Assembly: GCA_016235345.1 (NCBI GenBank)
Contig: JACRLG010000024.1
Coordinates: 1 to 64,000 of the forward strand
Direction: 5' to 3'
From: Deltaproteobacteria bacterium
GTDB taxonomy: Bacteria > Desulfobacterota > Desulfobacteria > Desulfobacterales > Desulfatibacillaceae
Length of the DNA: 64,000 nt
Below, one piece after another: positions 43,294 through 51,632 of the stretch; position 1 is the stretch's first letter; the number at the start of each line of letters is the position of its first letter. The notes under the pieces were generated by a model that was given only the letters and a program-made list of their open reading frames with translations, made no database searches and was not told where the DNA came from. The position numbers and the translations under genes were made by a program.

Positions 43294-45849
43294 CTAATAT
43301 TTGGGAACGAGGCGCAATATGCTTGTGTAGGCCGCGTCCTGGAGCTTCTTGTCAAAGGGCATGTTGGTGTACCGGCGGAAACGCCACGCCTTGACGCCGT
43401 CCTCGTAGTGGGGGCTCGCGGGGTTGCCGGACTGGCCCGTGCTGTTCATTATAAAGAGAGGCTCCGGCCTTGAAAAATCCACCACCATGCGCATTTCGGG
43501 TATGTAGAGGGTGTCGAAATCAAGGCCGACCCTGTAGCCCGAAACGTTCAAGGTGTTGCAGTCGCCGCCCGCAGGAAACGGACCCACGTTGAAGTAGCCC
43601 GAAAGCGCGCGCATCCCCATGCGCTTTCCCATATCCATGTTCCGGGCCATCTTGCTGCCCTCGGTCTCGAAATAATAGGTGTGGAGCCTTCCCCATTTCC
43701 ACTCGTTCCTGTCCGCCCCCAGCCTTTGCTCCAGAAACTCCACGGCTTCCGCAAGGCTTTTTGCCAGAACCTGCGCCTTGGTTTCCTTTTCCGGGGTGCC
43801 GATGTCGTCGAAAAAGGGGCTTTCGTCCCCGCGCACCAGAAGATGATCCTCCTGGGCGCTGTAACTGGCATCCCCAAGGGCCAGAAACGAGTGCCACATG
43901 GCCGAGTCCGCAGGCCCAAGCTCGTCCGAAAAGGTGTTTAGGGTGAAACAGTGGTAAAAGGCCCCGAAAAGCGCCGCATTCGCCTCGTCAGCCCCCATGT
44001 CGCCGGTGTGTACCCTGAATTTCGCAAGGGCCTCCCTGGCCCGGCTTTTCTGCTGGTTGTTGGACCATCCGCCTATTTCGCGCATTATCTCGTCTGTTTG
44101 GTCCGAGTTGAAAAGAACGCGCTGTAGCTTGGGAATGAGGTTCGATACCTGATCGTACTGAAGGTCGAAGGATTTTTCGGCGGTGTGGGCCCTGTCCTTC
44201 GCAAGGACCTTGCCTATCCTCTGGACCCGTTCGGGCGAAAACCAGGAGGAGGAGAGCAGGGGCCCCGGTCCGGGCTCAGCCGCGCGGGCGTTTGCTGTGG
44301 CCAGAAAGCCCGCATCGGGATTGATGGAATAGGGCAGGGCCTCGTTGGGCACGAACCCGGTCCAGTCGTATTCGCCGGTCCAGCCCGGAGAGGGCGCGAG
44401 CCCCTGGCCCTTTTTGCGCACCGGATAGATGCCCGTGACCTGCCAGGCTATGTTGTCGCGGTCCCCGTAAACCATGTTCAGGGCCATTGAGCTTACGTTG
44501 CTTATGGCGGTTTTCGCCTCCGCCATGGTCTTGGCCCGGCCAAGGCTGAAAAAACCGTCGAAGGTGGCGTCCGTGGGCGACTGGGCCCATGAAAGGGCCA
44601 CGGCGTAAGACGTGGTGAGCTGTTCGGGAACCAGGACCATCTTGGAAGGGCCTCTAAGGGCCTGGTTGAGTATCGGGCCGTGAAGGGTCTCGTGAATCAC
44701 GCGGGTTACCGTTTTTCCGCCCTTTACGTGGAAAACCTCGGTGCGCTCCTTTGCGGGGACCCACTGCCCCTTGTAAAGGTAGCAGGTCTTGCCGTCCACC
44801 ACGGACAGCTTTTCAAGGAAAAGGTCCTGGTTGTCGGCCATGACCATTGTCATGCCCCAGGCAAGATGCCCGTTGTAGCCCGCAACCACCCCCGGAAGCC
44901 CGGCGGCGGAAATTCCTGCAGCGTCGTAGAGACCTTTGCAGCGGATGTGGACCAGTTTCCACAGGCTTGGCAGAGACACGTTGAGATGGGTGTCGTTGGC
45001 CACGATGGAGGCCCCTGAGGCCGTGCGGTCCTTGTAAACCGCCCAGTTGTTGGATGCGGCGATTCCCAGGGATTTTATGGACGTGATGGCCCGGCGCATG
45101 GATTCGGCCTGTTCCGCAGCTTCGGCCAGGCCCGGCCCCATGAGCCCGGCCAGTTTTTCGGCCTCGGAAAAACGAAGGGGCTCGTCGGGATAGACCGGAA
45201 CCAGCCACGCTGCCTTTTGGGGGCCGATTTTCTGCGCCACGTTCAGAAAGGCGATTTCCTCGCCAAGGTTTGTGGCAAGGCCCAGATTCATGATGTAGAA
45301 CACGTAAAGGCAGTCGATGGGCCGCCAGGGATCGGGCTTGTAGCCGGAAAGGGAAAGATCGGGCGGAAGTTTTTTCGCGGTCCAGAGATAGGCGTTCACC
45401 CCACGGCTGTAGGCCGAAAGTATCTGCCGTAAATACGGGCTGGCGTTGTCCAGCGCCGTCTGCGCCCGCTCCTTGAGGTTTAAGGTCCTCATGAAAAGGT
45501 CGATTTCAAGGGTTTCCCTGCCTGCCATCTCGCTTAAGCGGCCCTGGGCGGTGAGGGAGTTTCCCACCATCTGGGCGAGCCTGTCCGAAGCATCTGCGTA
45601 ACCGTTGGCGAAAACGCAGTCGGTGATGGTGTCCGCCTCGATCAGGGGAATTCCCATTGAGTCGCGCTTTATGGTGGCGCCTTTTTCCATTCCGGGCAGG
45701 GTGACCTCACCCGTCTGGGGGCCAAGGCTCGGCTCGTAGGTGGCTGTAAGAAAGCCATGACAACCGGTGAGGGTGAAAAGGAAAAGCGATGCCGCAACGG
45801 CTATGAGCCCGGAACGGACGCGGGAAGGCCTGAGATTGTCTCGATTCAT
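43294..45849 (-). CDS. Penicillin acylase family lipoprotein
   Basis: 851-aa Ntn hydrolase precursor. The signal peptide ends in FLFTLTGC, a lipobox. The alpha region (IKRDSMGIPLIEADTITDCV, RLSEMAGRETLEIDLFMRTL) is followed by the beta-chain start SNNWAVYKDRTASGASIVAN at ~264, whose Ser becomes the N-terminal nucleophile after self-cleavage; ANDTHL and SLPGVVAGYNGHLAWGMT follow as usual. Natural substrates of such enzymes are often N-acyl-homoserine lactones or acyl amides; this one is not known. Monocistronic by position. Confidence 0.9.
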   Translation of the reverse strand: MNRDNLRPSRVRSGLIAVAASLFLFTLTGCHGFLTATYEPSLGPQTGEVTLPGMEKGATIKRDSMGIPLIEADTITDCVFANGYADASDRLAQMVGNSLTAQGRLSEMAGRETLEIDLFMRTLNLKERAQTALDNASPYLRQILSAYSRGVNAYLWTAKKLPPDLSLSGYKPDPWRPIDCLYVFYIMNLGLATNLGEEIAFLNVAQKIGPQKAAWLVPVYPDEPLRFSEAEKLAGLMGPGLAEAAEQAESMRRAITSIKSLGIAASNNWAVYKDRTASGASIVANDTHLNVSLPSLWKLVHIRCKGLYDAAGISAAGLPGVVAGYNGHLAWGMTMVMADNQDLFLEKLSVVDGKTCYLYKGQWVPAKERTEVFHVKGGKTVTRVIHETLHGPILNQALRGPSKMVLVPEQLTTSYAVALSWAQSPTDATFDGFFSLGRAKTMAEAKTAISNVSSMALNMVYGDRDNIAWQVTGIYPVRKKGQGLAPSPGWTGEYDWTGFVPNEALPYSINPDAGFLATANARAAEPGPGPLLSSSWFSPERVQRIGKVLAKDRAHTAEKSFDLQYDQVSNLIPKLQRVLFNSDQTDEIMREIGGWSNNQQKSRAREALAKFRVHTGDMGADEANAALFGAFYHCFTLNTFSDELGPADSAMWHSFLALGDASYSAQEDHLLVRGDESPFFDDIGTPEKETKAQVLAKSLAEAVEFLEQRLGADRNEWKWGRLHTYYFETEGSKMARNMDMGKRMGMRALSGYFNVGPFPAGGDCNTLNVSGYRVGLDFDTLYIPEMRMVVDFSRPEPLFIMNSTGQSGNPASPHYEDGVKAWRFRRYTNMPFDKKLQDAAYTSILRLVPKY

Positions 45850-45996: not shown

Positions 45997-47400
45997 CTAA
46001 GTTTTCGCCGGATGCCCGTCTTTCGAGCCACCGGACAGGTTTTTGGCGGACGGGGCAAAGACAAAGTAAAGGAGCCGGAAGACCTTCGCCCTGTACTCGT
46101 CGGAATTCGGGGCCACGCCAAGAAGGCCCGCAGTGTAATCCGGCGCGCCCGCCAGGCTGTAGCCCGCCGTGACCACCGAATAAAGCCAGCGGTTGAGGTC
46201 CGGGGTCGGCGCGTCCATGCCCTTTGGAACGTTCTTCACGGCCATGTCCAGCATCCCTGAATGGACCTTGGACATGTGAACGAAGCCGGAAAGATGCTCG
46301 TATATTTCGTAATTGGCGGTGTTGCGGGTAAGAAGGCCAATGGTGTCGCGGTTCTCGAAGCAGTATTCCAGCCCATTTTGAAGCAGGGTCCGAAATATCC
46401 CGTCCGGCGGCAGTCCTTTAAGGCCCGCCTGCCAGTTACCCAGGGCCTTAATGAAATCGCCGTAAGCCTGCCGCGCCACCGCCTCGAACAGGGCGTCCTT
46501 GCTGGGGTAGAGGTGGTGGATAAGGGAGTGGTCAAAGGAGCCCGCGCTTCCCACCATGCGGATGGTGGCCTCGTCGTAGGCGTGTGAAGAAAAGACCTTC
46601 TTGGCCGCCTTCAATATCCGCTGCCGGGCCTTTTCGCCGCGCGTCCTTTTTTGGGGCGGGCCTGGAAGAGGGCTTGCCGAAAGCGCGGAAAATTGGGGCA
46701 AGGCGGCCTGCCGTGCCCCGGCTTCGCGGGCTTTCCCGGAAGAGACCTCCCTTAAAAGCGGCTCGAACAGGAAGACCACCGTCTCCCTCGCCCACCTTTT
46801 GTAATCCTCGGCGGAAAGCCCCAGCACGTTCCGGTGAAAGGCCATCGCCCCCACGTACTGGGAAACGATGAGGGTGAAGGCCAGCATGAGCATTGACGCC
46901 TCATCCTCCAAAGCATCGCCCAGAAGGCTTTCGCGCGCCAGGGCTATGATCTTTTCCTGCACCTTTTTCATGCGGAAAAGGCCGGGGCCTGGCGTTTTTG
47001 GCGATTCGGCGTCAGCCGCGTTCAACAGAAGAAGCCTGTAGGGGGCGGGATGCAAAAAGCCCTGGAGCACGACTCCGTTCAGGTAGAAATTCGCGCGCAA
47101 CTCCGGCGGCAGGGCCCTCAAGGCCTCGAAAAATTCGGGGTGGCTTTCGAGGATTTCCTTTTCAAGCGCCTCGGAGACCTCGTCGAAAAGGGCGGTCTTG
47201 GAGCCGAAGTAATGCAGAAGCAGCGGGTGCCGGACTCCAGCCTCTTCCGCGATGATGCGCAGGCTCGCCGAGCGGAAGGGCATTCGGGTGAACACCGACC
47301 TGGCCGCGTCCAGTATCCGCTGCCGGGTTTCCCCGCCCTTGACTGCGTTTCTCTTTCTGGGATCAGGCAGAAGGTTTTCTTCGGTTCGGTCGATTTTCAA
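45997..47400 (-). CDS. Tandem TetR regulator (two fused TetR repressors)
   Basis: 467 aa containing two complete TetR-type units. The first HTH is TRQRILDAARSVFTRM...RIIAEEAGVRHPLLLHYFGSK (~25-70); the second is ARQRILKAAKKVFSSHAYDE...HSLIHHLYPSKDALFEAV (~255-305). Each is followed by its own helical ligand/dimer domain, joined by a Pro/Ala linker. TTG 47400 is chosen because GGAG lies 6 bases before; TTG 47427 is an alternative. It is divergent from an acyl-CoA dehydrogenase, suggesting acyl-CoA-responsive control of that operon. Single-unit TetR proteins are ~200 aa, so the fusion is unusual. Confidence 0.82.
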   Translation of the reverse strand: MKIDRTEENLLPDPRKRNAVKGGETRQRILDAARSVFTRMPFRSASLRIIAEEAGVRHPLLLHYFGSKTALFDEVSEALEKEILESHPEFFEALRALPPELRANFYLNGVVLQGFLHPAPYRLLLLNAADAESPKTPGPGLFRMKKVQEKIIALARESLLGDALEDEASMLMLAFTLIVSQYVGAMAFHRNVLGLSAEDYKRWARETVVFLFEPLLREVSSGKAREAGARQAALPQFSALSASPLPGPPQKRTRGEKARQRILKAAKKVFSSHAYDEATIRMVGSAGSFDHSLIHHLYPSKDALFEAVARQAYGDFIKALGNWQAGLKGLPPDGIFRTLLQNGLEYCFENRDTIGLLTRNTANYEIYEHLSGFVHMSKVHSGMLDMAVKNVPKGMDAPTPDLNRWLYSVVTAGYSLAGAPDYTAGLLGVAPNSDEYRAKVFRLLYFVFAPSAKNLSGGSKDGHPAKT

Positions 47401-47483
47401 AAGCCGCTCCACTGGAAAGATTTTCAAAAACCTGAAATCTTTGAGGGTTTCATATCACAGCCGGGGTTTTCGCGTAAAGAAAT

Positions 47484-47554
47484 TTTACCGTTTGTGGATT
47501 TTTCTTGACAGGGCGGGGGAGAATGGCGCATATAAAATTTACCGCTTGTGGATT
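47484..47554 (+). promoter_or_regulatory. Promoter flanked by two direct repeats (candidate TetR operators)
   Basis: TTTACCG-TTTGTGGATT at 47484-47500 and TTTACCG-CTTGTGGATT at 47538-47554 match at 16 of 17 bases and are 54 bp apart, about five helical turns. Between them are TTGACA (47505-47510) as -35 and CATATAAA (from 47529) as -10 of a plus-strand promoter for the acyl-CoA dehydrogenase gene. Repression by the divergent double-TetR protein is inferred. Confidence 0.6.
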
Positions 47555-47604
47555 ATGGCAAGGGGGATTCCCTGTCTTGAACAGCATAAGAAAGGAGAAA
47601 GCCC

Positions 47605-49200
47605 ATGTCCCTTCCTGATAGAAACAATCCTTACAGCTTCAACCCCTTTCTTGAATGGCGGAAAAAAGCCGATTACTACGAAGAGGACGCCTTCCTCAAA
47701 AAGATGATCCGCCTCTACGCCGGAGACGGGGCCGACAAGGTGGAGCGGGAGGCTCGGGAATTCTCCAAAAAGGCATCTTTCCGGTGGCGGGATTTTTCCG
47801 AAAGGATAGCAACCCCGGACAGGCGGCCAGCCATGATGCATTACGACGGCCACGGAAACCGCATCGACCGTATAGTGCGCCCGTATGAAACCGAGGTCAT
47901 GGAAAGGGAGGTCTTTTCCGAGGCATGGTTTTCGCATAAAACCTCGGCCTGGACCCGTTTCGTAAAGTTCTACCTTTTAAGCCAGAACGGCGAGGCCGGG
48001 GTATCCTGCCCTTTGACCTGCACCTGGGGCCTTGCCTCGGTTCTGGAAAAATTCGCCGACACCCCCGAAACCCGGCATATTCTTCGCCACATAAAAGACG
48101 GCATGGAAGGCGATTTCGCCATCGGCGCGCAGTTCGTCTCCGAAATCCAGGGCGGAAGCGACGTTCCGGCCAATCTCCTGGAAGCCGTGGAGGAAAACGG
48201 CCAGTGGCGTCTTTACGGCGCCAAGTTTTTCTGCTCCGCCGCACACGCCGACTACGCCGCCATAACCGCCAAGCCGAGGGGCTCCGAAACCGTGGCTCTT
48301 TTCGTTTTGCCCATGTGGCTTCCGGGCGACAAGGAAAGGGAAATCCGCAACTCCTGCACAATTGACCGCATCAAGTGGAAGATGGGCACGGCAGAGCTTC
48401 CCACAGCCGAGATGACCTTCAACGGCTCGCTGGCCTATCCCGTGGGGCCCTTGAACCGGGGAGTGGCCAGCGTGGTGGGCATCGTGCTCACCTATTCGCG
48501 CCTGGCCATCGCCATCGGTATGGCGGGCGGCATGGCCCGTGGCCTGCGGGAAATCAAAAAGTACGCGGAATTCCGCACCGTCTTCGGCATGGCCATCAAG
48601 GACTGGCCCATGGCCGCTGTCCAGCTCCGGAAAAACGAGCGCTACGCCCTTCGCACCATAGCGGGAAACTTCGCGGTCTATGAAAAGTTCATTGATCTGC
48701 CCGGCGGCCTTGCCCTGGGCCTTGCCACCGACGAGCCCTTGGCCCTCAAAAGGCGGCGCTTCGACGTCCGCCAGCTCGTGATGCTCCAGAAGATAACCGT
48801 GGCCCAAGACGCCTGCGACATGTCCCGCCTGGGGATCAGCGTTTTCGGCGGGCACGGGGTGATGGAGGACTTCTCCTCCTTTCCGCGCATGTTCCGGGAC
48901 GGGCTCGTGAACGAGTTGTGGGAGGGCCCGCGAAACGTGCTTCTCACCCAGCTTTTTTTGGATTTCCAGCGCGCGCGCTCCTGGTATCCGCCGGAGGAAT
49001 TCATCGGTTGCATCATGAAAGGCGCGGACGAAGCCCTTGTGGACGAATACGGAAAAGAGCTTTTGGATCTGATGCAGACCCCGCACTTTTTCGACATGGA
49101 CGAGAAAACCATGGACGTCTGCGAGAGGTGGGACGATTTCTGCGCAAGGCTCTTCCACGCCTACCAGGACCTTGCCCTGGCCAGGGCGGAGAGCGCCTGA
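47605..49200 (+). CDS. Acyl-CoA dehydrogenase family protein
   Basis: 531 aa, longer than ordinary ~380-aa acyl-CoA dehydrogenases and closer to AidB-like members. FAD-contact stretch SEIQGGSDVPANLLEAVEE, the middle beta domain (WRLYGAKFFCSAAHADYAAI), and the C-terminal helical domain with catalytic Glu in VNELWEGPRNVLLTQLF are present. AAGGAG precedes ATG 47605. First gene of a likely operon with two 2-hydroxyacyl-CoA dehydratase subunits, under the TTGACA promoter flanked by repeats. The substrate is probably an acyl-CoA of the same pathway. Confidence 0.87.
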   Translation: MSLPDRNNPYSFNPFLEWRKKADYYEEDAFLKKMIRLYAGDGADKVEREAREFSKKASFRWRDFSERIATPDRRPAMMHYDGHGNRIDRIVRPYETEVMEREVFSEAWFSHKTSAWTRFVKFYLLSQNGEAGVSCPLTCTWGLASVLEKFADTPETRHILRHIKDGMEGDFAIGAQFVSEIQGGSDVPANLLEAVEENGQWRLYGAKFFCSAAHADYAAITAKPRGSETVALFVLPMWLPGDKEREIRNSCTIDRIKWKMGTAELPTAEMTFNGSLAYPVGPLNRGVASVVGIVLTYSRLAIAIGMAGGMARGLREIKKYAEFRTVFGMAIKDWPMAAVQLRKNERYALRTIAGNFAVYEKFIDLPGGLALGLATDEPLALKRRRFDVRQLVMLQKITVAQDACDMSRLGISVFGGHGVMEDFSSFPRMFRDGLVNELWEGPRNVLLTQLFLDFQRARSWYPPEEFIGCIMKGADEALVDEYGKELLDLMQTPHFFDMDEKTMDVCERWDDFCARLFHAYQDLALARAESA

Positions 49201-49236: not shown

Positions 49237-50385
49237 ATGGAATCCGCCCGGAACACACTTTTGCGCCTCAAAAGCGAGGGGCGAAAGATAATCGGCTGCT
49301 TTCCCCTATATCCGCCCCTGGAGCTTTTGCACAGCATGGGCCTGGTCCCGGTGGTGCTGTGGGGGCTTTCGGACGGAGTCCGCGCAACCCCGGACGCGGA
49401 CGGGCGCATCCAGAACTACGCCTGCTCGGTGGCAAGAAGGCTCGCCCAGTTCGTGATGGCGGAGGGGAAAGACCTCCTGGACGGCCTTTTTTTCTACAAC
49501 GCCTGCGACACCCTGCGGAACCTGCCCGAAATCCTTCTTGAGGGCGTGGCCGAATCGGGAGCCGCGCCCCTTCCCATGTTTCGGATGCACGTCCCCATGA
49601 CGCCTCCTGCCCAGGCCGATTCTTCGGAGTATCTGCGAAACGAGGTGCGAAACCTCATCGCAAGCCTTGAAAAACACAGTGGATTGGAGTTTTCCGAAGA
49701 GCGCTTCGCCCGAAGCGCCGAGCTTTATTCGAGTATGCGAAATCTTTGCAGGCTGCTGGAGGCTGCGGTCGCGGAACGGCGCCTGGGCTTTGCGGATTTC
49801 TGCGAAACCCTTTCATCCGCCAATTTCCTGCCGGTGGAGGATCAGATCGCGCTCCTCAAATCAAGGCTCGCCTCGCTTCCGCCCGATCCCGCGCCCAAAA
49901 ACTTTGCGGGCCGGGTAATCGTAAGCGGAATCCTGCCGCCGCCTTTGGCTGTCTGCCGACTGATGGATCAGGCCGGACTGCTGGTTGCGGGAAATGACGT
50001 CGCATCCCTTTTCCGTTCCTACGCCGTGGCTCCCTCAGATTGGAAGGATGCGGCTGATTATTACGTGCGCTTTTACCAGGGCCATTTTCCCTGCACCACC
50101 CTCTTGAACCTTGCCGAAAGGCGCATGGAGGCGGTGATGGCCCTGGCCTTGGAAAAAGGAGCGGACGGATTCGTGTTCGTTGGCGAAAAATTCTGCGAAT
50201 ACGAGTACTTCGAGATTCCAGACATGGAAAATCTTTTAAGAAAAAATGGCCTTGCCACCCTGGCGATAGAAATTTCGCTGGATGACGAGGATAACGTCGA
50301 AGCATACAGAACTCGCATGGAGGCCTTTTCCGAAGTGCTTTTAGAGCGGAACAGGCCCAAAAAACCGGAAGGGGTGCGGTCATGA
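49237..50385 (+). CDS. 2-hydroxyacyl-CoA dehydratase family subunit (first)
   Basis: 382 aa of the HgdB/BcrC/FldBC superfamily. The three conserved cysteine positions for the [4Fe-4S] cluster are visible: IIGCFPLYPPLELLHSMG, NYACSVARRLAQF and FFYNACDTLRNLPE. The C-terminal half has GFVFVGEKFCEYEYFEIPD. With its partner it should form the heterodimer that dehydrates 2-hydroxyacyl-CoA or reduces an aromatic CoA ester by radical chemistry. The activator ATPase (HgdC type) is not in the window. It overlaps the next gene by 4 bases. Confidence 0.87.
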   Translation: MESARNTLLRLKSEGRKIIGCFPLYPPLELLHSMGLVPVVLWGLSDGVRATPDADGRIQNYACSVARRLAQFVMAEGKDLLDGLFFYNACDTLRNLPEILLEGVAESGAAPLPMFRMHVPMTPPAQADSSEYLRNEVRNLIASLEKHSGLEFSEERFARSAELYSSMRNLCRLLEAAVAERRLGFADFCETLSSANFLPVEDQIALLKSRLASLPPDPAPKNFAGRVIVSGILPPPLAVCRLMDQAGLLVAGNDVASLFRSYAVAPSDWKDAADYYVRFYQGHFPCTTLLNLAERRMEAVMALALEKGADGFVFVGEKFCEYEYFEIPDMENLLRKNGLATLAIEISLDDEDNVEAYRTRMEAFSEVLLERNRPKKPEGVRS

Positions 50386-51632
50386 CCAGGAAGAAAACGA
50401 ACGCCGGAAGGCATCTTTCGGAACTCCTCATGAACGCCTACATGGGGGCACACACAAGGGCGGCTGAAGGGGCCTTCGTGATCTGGGGGGCCATAGTGGT
50501 GCCTTCCGAAATATTCAGGGGTTTTGAAAACGTGGTGTACTGCGTGCCCGAAAGCCACGCGGCCCTGTGCGCGGCCAAGGGGGACGGCGCGAGACAGGGC
50601 GAAAAGGCCGAGGCCCTTGGTTATTCCATGGACCTTTGCTCCTACGCCCGCATAGACATCGGCTCGGTTTCGGACGGCGGAAAGGATTCCCCCACTTTCG
50701 GGCTGCCGAAACCGCATCTGCTGGTCTCCGACAACAACAACTGCTCGCTTCTGGTCAAGTGGTTCGACGTTCACAAAAGGTCCATGCAGATCCCCCACTT
50801 CATAATAGACGTGCCCTTCTGCTACGGCCCCCAAGCGGAAAAGGACACCGCCTACATCCTAAGCCAGTTCAAGGACCTGATCCGCACGGTGGAGAAGCTC
50901 TCCGGCCAGCCTTTCCGCGAGGAAAAATTTCACGAGGCCATGCTCTACACGGCGAGCGGGATTTTGGACTGGAAGCGCTTCATGGCCTGTGCGAAAAACA
51001 AGCCCTCCGGCATCACGGTCTTTGATTCATTCGTGCAGATGGCCCCGTTTTTCACCTCGCGGGGAACTTTGGAATTCGCCGAGCACTACAGGCTTTTGGC
51101 GGACGAGGCGGAAGATAACGTCAGAAACGGAATCTTCCCGGTTCCCGATGAAAAGTACCGGCTCATGTGGGACAACATCGCCCCCTGGCACCAGCTTGGG
51201 AAGATGAGCCGCCGCCTCACCGAGCTTGGCGCAAACATCGTGGCCGCCCCCTACACATCCTGCATCGGCGCAAAGGAGGGCTCCCACGCTCTCGTATCCT
51301 TTGACCAAAACCAGGACCCCCTGTGGTGCCTGGCCAGAACCCAGAACAACTCGGTCTGCCCCTATGGCTTAAATCTCCGCGCCTCGGCCATGAACTCCAC
51401 CATAAGGGAAATCGGCATAGACGGGGTGGTCTTCGCCAGCAACCGAAGCTGCAAGGTTTTCTCGGTGATGCAGATGGACCTTCAAAAGCGGGTGAGGAAG
51501 GAGCACGGCATCCCGACGGTGATGATAGACGTGGACCACGCCGACGTACGGCAGTTTTCCGAGGAGGGGGTTTACGTGCGCCTTTCAGCCCTTCTGGAAT
51601 CCATCGACGCCCGGCGGGCCGAGGGGCTTTGA
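50382..51632 (+). CDS. 2-hydroxyacyl-CoA dehydratase family subunit (second)
   Basis: 416-aa partner subunit of the same family. Cysteine positions are VVYCVPESHAALCAAK, MDLCSYARIDIGS and SDNNNCSLLVKWFD; DVPFCYGP and GIDGVVFASNRSCKVFSVMQ are further family stretches. Translational overlap with the preceding subunit implies equal production. Benzoyl-CoA reductase-type and hydroxyacyl dehydratase-type functions cannot be told apart here. Confidence 0.87.
   Translation: MTRKKTNAGRHLSELLMNAYMGAHTRAAEGAFVIWGAIVVPSEIFRGFENVVYCVPESHAALCAAKGDGARQGEKAEALGYSMDLCSYARIDIGSVSDGGKDSPTFGLPKPHLLVSDNNNCSLLVKWFDVHKRSMQIPHFIIDVPFCYGPQAEKDTAYILSQFKDLIRTVEKLSGQPFREEKFHEAMLYTASGILDWKRFMACAKNKPSGITVFDSFVQMAPFFTSRGTLEFAEHYRLLADEAEDNVRNGIFPVPDEKYRLMWDNIAPWHQLGKMSRRLTELGANIVAAPYTSCIGAKEGSHALVSFDQNQDPLWCLARTQNNSVCPYGLNLRASAMNSTIREIGIDGVVFASNRSCKVFSVMQMDLQKRVRKEHGIPTVMIDVDHADVRQFSEEGVYVRLSALLESIDARRAEGL

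Follow-up and report, generated by a model that had tools for sequence, protein, structure and literature searches.

In the window, that is, the whole stretch of 64,000 nucleotides that was analysed, a protein made of two TetR units lies divergent from an acyl-CoA dehydrogenase operon whose promoter is bracketed by two copies of one asymmetric sequence, and this protein is quite probably a single-chain pseudo-dimeric TetR repressor, one chain of which would cover each 17-bp site of a two-site promoter older than the fusion. Somewhat less firmly, but still on the likelier side, it would represent a second independent origin of a single-chain TetR, in which pairs of homodimer palindromes passed into asymmetric pairs for a fused heterodimer, with the ancestral state still visible, one helix-turn-helix (HTH) conserved and the other diverged into insulated paralogue codes (GTGGATT versus GTAGAAA).

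The double TetR protein and its divergent promoter

The presence of two full TetR units in one polypeptide, as proposed in the earlier note, was borne out by Pfam PF00440 (TetR_N), which matches two stretches of the ORF (80 bits, above the curated cut-off of 24), and by single-unit TetR structures, which match residues 30-238 and 261-466 of the structure model and thus indicate a TetR fold in each unit. A penicillin-acylase family protein (Pfam 658 bits, 43294-45849) adjoins the regulator on the same strand.

The regulator gene and the acyl-CoA dehydrogenase gene are separated by a divergent gap of 177 bp (47428-47604). In it, two direct repeats of the form TTTACCG(T/C)TTGTGGATT, 54 bp apart from start to start, flank the -35 and -10 elements (Table 1), as had been described from the sequence beforehand. 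The best 20-mer pair in the gap agrees at 18 of 20 positions, compared with at most 15 of 20 in 300 dinucleotide-preserving shuffles of the 177 bp, and the site pair is not a product of chance. The 17-bp core TTTACCGYTTGTGGATT differs by one base between the two sites (the extended 29-nt match is 83%), and exact copies of the core occur in the 4.0-Mb genome only at these two places. The spacer between -35 and -10 is 18, and the -10 lies directly 5' of site 2. This plus-strand promoter was not listed by a promoter scan of the window because its -10 is weak in this copy; better versions are found in relatives (TTGACA-17-TATATT at locus L061 and TTGACA-18-GATAAT at L060). Among the few neighbours examined, no activator ATPase for the HGD-D pair (49237-51632) was recognised.

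Table 1. Positions of the regulator, promoter and target operon features in the window
Feature	Position	Strand	Details
Double TetR regulator gene	45997..47427	-	476 aa, TTG start; ORF and Pfam, AF2 model, 16 homologues
C-terminal TetR_N/HTH, residues 267-317	46477..46629	-	T288, S301; proposed reader of right half-site
Inter-unit linker region, low-confidence, residues 231-262	46642..46737	-	pLDDT < 50 at 242-257
N-terminal TetR_N/HTH, residues 34-84	47176..47328	-	alpha3 VRHPLLLHYFGSK; proposed reader of left half-site TTTACCG
Putative operator site 1, AATTTTACCGTTTGTGGATT	47481..47500	+	core 47484-47500 TTTACCGTTTGTGGATT; directly upstream of -35
-35 TTGACA of divergent operon	47505..47510	+	position kept in 9 loci
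-10 CATATA, weak	47529..47534	+	placed by alignment with TATATT/GATAAT/TATAGA of relatives
Putative operator site 2, AAATTTACCGCTTGTGGATT	47535..47554	+	core 47538-47554 TTTACCGCTTGTGGATT; abuts -10 and start region
AidB-like acyl-CoA dehydrogenase	47605..49200	+	target operon gene 1
HGD-D (2-hydroxyacyl-CoA dehydratase/benzoyl-CoA reductase type subunit)	49237..50385	+	target operon gene 2
HGD-D, HadB-like	50382..51632	+	target operon gene 3

Fused relatives and their putative operator codes

A family search for TetR-TetR fusions and their repeats, which the earlier note had suggested, returned 16 different double-TetR genes, each one uninterrupted frame (456-561 codons), in nine of 389 genomes from the order, six of them from the same family, two from another and one from a third; 395 genomes from the phylum yielded no further double TetR beyond the order. 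One of these genes is a second double TetR in the window's own genome (contig C15, locus L062). Public genome contigs gave no related loci when the window protein alone was used as query and two true relatives, L071 (Desulfobacterales bacterium) and L072, both MAGs, when the alignment was used; viral contigs contained no relatives. Sixteen distinct unbroken frames in nine genomes refute the reading that two adjacent tetR genes were joined by a mistake in assembly or reading frame; the fusion is genuine. Both grounds on which the earlier note might have fallen, split genes with a sequencing error and repeats that are not conserved, have therefore failed, the frames being unbroken and the repeats conserved.

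Paired sites were detected at nine loci (the window, L060, L061, the own-genome paralogue L062, and L063 to L067), including L067, where the contig ends before the regulator so that the site pair is counted with no regulator on the contig. The 18 sites give the consensus TTTACCG-nnY-GTRGAWW. Their start-to-start spacing is 54, 55 or 56 bp, which is close to five helical turns and places both sites on the same face, TTGACA begins 21-24 bp from the first base of site 1, and site 2 lies close behind the -10. It might be supposed that the sites serve some other regulator and that the fused gene is merely adjacent, but this is very improbable, since the pair accompanies the double TetR at each of the eight loci whose contig includes the regulator, with target operons that are unrelated, and since the right half of the site changes along with the regulator clade.

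A check of upstream sequence found no clear site pair for the other eight of the 16 double TetRs: L190/L194 carry a single altered site, TTTATCCAnnCGnTGAAA, and L191/L195, L192/L193, L188 and L189 have no such site upstream. The paired layout is therefore confined to one clade of the fused proteins. Matches to the site motif in L068, L069 and L070 seem incidental. Upstream of the double TetR in L190 and L194, TTTCATCCGATAGATGAAA, a perfect 7-bp inverted repeat, overlaps TTTATCCAnnCGnTGAAA; these elements lie at the -10 of another operon, whose first gene encodes a thiolase or an SDR, and amount to a third operator code, in which a single site is clear. Similarly, a conserved GTGAAATnnTTCAC-like inverted repeat was observed upstream of the double TetRs in L192 (3150-3420) and L193 (4440-4780), whose two recognition helices are nearly alike; here a fused protein of greater symmetry may have an operator that is likewise more symmetric.

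Within the paired-site clade, the left half-site is identical throughout, whereas the right half exists in two forms. GTGGATT is found in the window, L060 and L061, each with an acyl-CoA dehydrogenase/HGD-D/HGD-D operon, which in L060 runs on with a thiolase, an NMO-family protein and a further acyl-CoA dehydrogenase. GTAGAAA occurs mainly with a glycyl-radical enzyme of ~840 aa (L062-L065 and L067, where L063-L065 and L067 were assigned by sequence likeness to L062 with no separate family search), and in L066 with an AMP ligase. Neither exact operator code was found in the window's own genome outside its own locus. In L062 the glycyl-radical enzyme gene (7415-9943 on contig C15; enzymes of like size in L064, L065 and L067) has ligase and thiolase genes after it, and a small cysteine-rich ORF precedes the enzyme in several loci. 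The enzyme scored below the curated NCBIfam cut-off for every family listed (best PFL2-3, 416.7 versus 678.2), and it possibly belongs to an unassigned subfamily, putatively controlled by the paralogous double TetR.

With regard to which HTH reads which half, the alpha2-alpha3 positions that separate the GTGGATT and GTAGAAA groups number 0 of 23 in the N-terminal HTH and 2 of 23 in the C-terminal HTH (T288/S and S301/T). In addition, the N-terminal HTH has an 'HPL' recognition-helix motif common to single-TetR cousins with TTTAACG palindromes, whereas the C-terminal HTH has FDxS or FDxT. Because the left half is constant, the separating positions are distributed in this way and the HPL motif is kept, TTTACCG, the conserved left half, is probably read by the N-terminal HTH and the diverged right half by the C-terminal HTH, an assignment that is statistically weak in that there is one split between two clades and shared ancestry could give the same pattern.

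Single-TetR cousins, the structure model and proposed promoter occupancy

Single-unit cousins of the double TetR (L169, L170, L176, L178, L180 and, in the window's own genome, L196) belong to the same TetR clade and have the same two-site promoter bracket; they differ in having one unit per chain, perfect or near palindromes, spacings of 51-52 or 54-55 bp, and other target genes. Cousins with a helix like.DHPL.NYYFPTK have paired perfect palindromes, TTTAACGnnCGTTAAA, 51-52 bp apart, between which lies the TTGACA of the divergent gene. A pattern search found exact TTTAACGnnCGTTAAA pairs in six of 291 genomes, all exactly 52 bp apart and all on contigs carrying a single-TetR cousin gene, and its reversed control gave zero matches in the 291 genomes. 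At the own-genome cousin (L196/L037) and a same-genus copy (L025), TTGACT lies between near-palindromes spaced 54-55 bp, the spacing in the own genome being 54 bp. In the cousin loci L206 and L207, the divergent genes that follow the paired palindromes are not the same (L206 has a DUF169 protein), and on the regulator's strand L206 carries an iron alcohol dehydrogenase and a protein that resembles, by eye, aldehyde ferredoxin oxidoreductase.

Each cousin site has the form expected of an operator for one ordinary dimer, suggesting that the simplest reading of each asymmetric site in the fused case is as the footprint of a single chain that acts as a dimer. Since single cousins have the same bracket, two sites need no double protein, and the two-site layout appears to predate the fusion, the cousin pairs being observed and the order of events reconstructed from them. 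The covalent tandem protein with its site pair, as pictured in the earlier note, is real and conserved, but one TetR unit per site is disfavoured, because the cousin sites are each a full dimer palindrome and the tandem sites have unlike half-sites.

The same evidence bears on an arrangement in which one chain spans both sites, so that N-N and C-C dimers between two chains, one dimer per site, would bridge the promoter with four HTHs. The two sites and two units agree in number, and 54-56 bp, about five turns, would keep them on one face of the helix. However, palindromes would be expected for N-N or C-C homodimers, and sites 1 and 2 should be unlike each other, whereas one asymmetric sequence is observed twice, with no change of orientation; paired sites are also used by single-TetR cousins, which have no tandem protein, and the AF2 model matches the pseudo-dimer of Mce3R. 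Such a bridge is therefore improbable.

This AF2 model, built from three sequences (the window protein, L071 and L072), has a pLDDT of 77.9 and a pTM of 0.79. The only end-to-end match among solved structures was Mce3R (Rv1963c) of Mycobacterium tuberculosis, PDB 9b7y (Foldseek E 2.6e-7, next 2.2e-3; VIA Z 21.8 over 374 residues, model residues 23-466), the other listed structures matching one half only (VIA, best Z 15.2). The structure prediction proposed earlier is thus compatible with a pseudo-dimer, but the rmsd to Mce3R is 6.2 A with three sequences as input, so that the relative placement of the halves is unsettled and the inter-half angle may differ.

Mce3R is a solved double TFR whose operator region has two asymmetric sites, with both HTHs of one chain on one nonpalindromic site; its chains form a C2 dimer via alpha15, for which the authors suggested looping (PMC11667970). 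Like the window protein, it has two TetR units per chain and two nonpalindromic sites in its target promoter region, and its divergent targets are in lipid metabolism (PMC11667970, PMC2277422). The layouts differ: the Mce3R sites are 25 bp long with a 53-bp gap, that is, ~78 from start to start (our own reading of the 104-bp region), and lie in an intergenic gap of 880-898 bp, whereas the window sites are 17 bp with a 37-bp gap in 177 bp of intergenic sequence, and start-to-start distances at fused-TetR loci are 54-56. FasR and FadR, TetR/AcrR acyl-CoA regulators with solved structures, have a fold that matches each half, and the neighbour genes here likewise act on acyl-CoA; unlike the double TetR, they are homodimers.

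By analogy with Mce3R and from the AF2 model, the two units of one chain are predicted to pack together as the subunits of a conventional TetR dimer do, so that a single Omega-shaped molecule with two different HTHs results. One chain would cover one 17-bp site, with the N-terminal HTH on TTTACCG and the C-terminal HTH on GTGGATT, and two chains would therefore occupy the two sites, upstream of -35 and downstream of -10, about five helical turns apart. So bound, they would silence the acyl-CoA dehydrogenase/HGD-D/HGD-D operon at its promoter, with release probably brought about by an acyl-CoA-type metabolite.

The pseudo-dimers on both sites might also pair with each other and bend or loop the promoter segment of ~54 bp, which is compatible with the single-chain pseudo-dimer model as an addition to it. 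The C2 dimer of Mce3R speaks for such contacts, as does a spacing held at 51-56 bp, near whole helical turns, in tandem and single cousins. Nevertheless, the fixed -35/-10 geometry flanked by both sites can explain the spacing, and proteins on two direct-repeat sites within a 54-bp segment could hardly be connected through a C2 interface; looping is thus conceivable but rather doubtful.

Origin of the fusion and its significance

In a tree that covered the N halves, the C halves, the single cousins and other TetRs, but not Mce3R, the first three groups cluster together, separately from the other TetRs (99/97), and within the paired-site clade N and C halves branch in matching order. The N and C halves alike are closer to single TetRs from their own order than to Mce3R, whose sequence kinship to the window protein extends no further than one HTH (E 0.0033) and which was absent from profile matches at 1e-8; a fusion independent of Mce3R is therefore tentatively favoured. 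The fusion would have locked two unlike HTHs into one molecule, after which the sites would have lost their symmetry; it seems, from these comparisons, that fusion permitted operator asymmetry.

Mce3R was the only natural double TetR found in the open-access papers searched, and as its architecture is already known (a solved double TFR on two asymmetric sites, PMC11667970), the suggestion that the present protein is a new arrangement for the family does not hold. The idea that a double site needed a double protein is likewise removed.

The point of lasting value is the transition, still visible here, from palindrome pairs to asymmetric pairs, with two separate codes in one genome. Homodimeric regulators are confined to symmetric operators. 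As fused and unfused relatives, together with their operators, share one order and even one genome, the step from fusion to asymmetry is readable and testable here. For synthetic circuits, the proteins could also supply single-chain TetR components of natural origin whose operators are asymmetric, and the route by which paralogues gain separate operator codes is likewise readable in this group.
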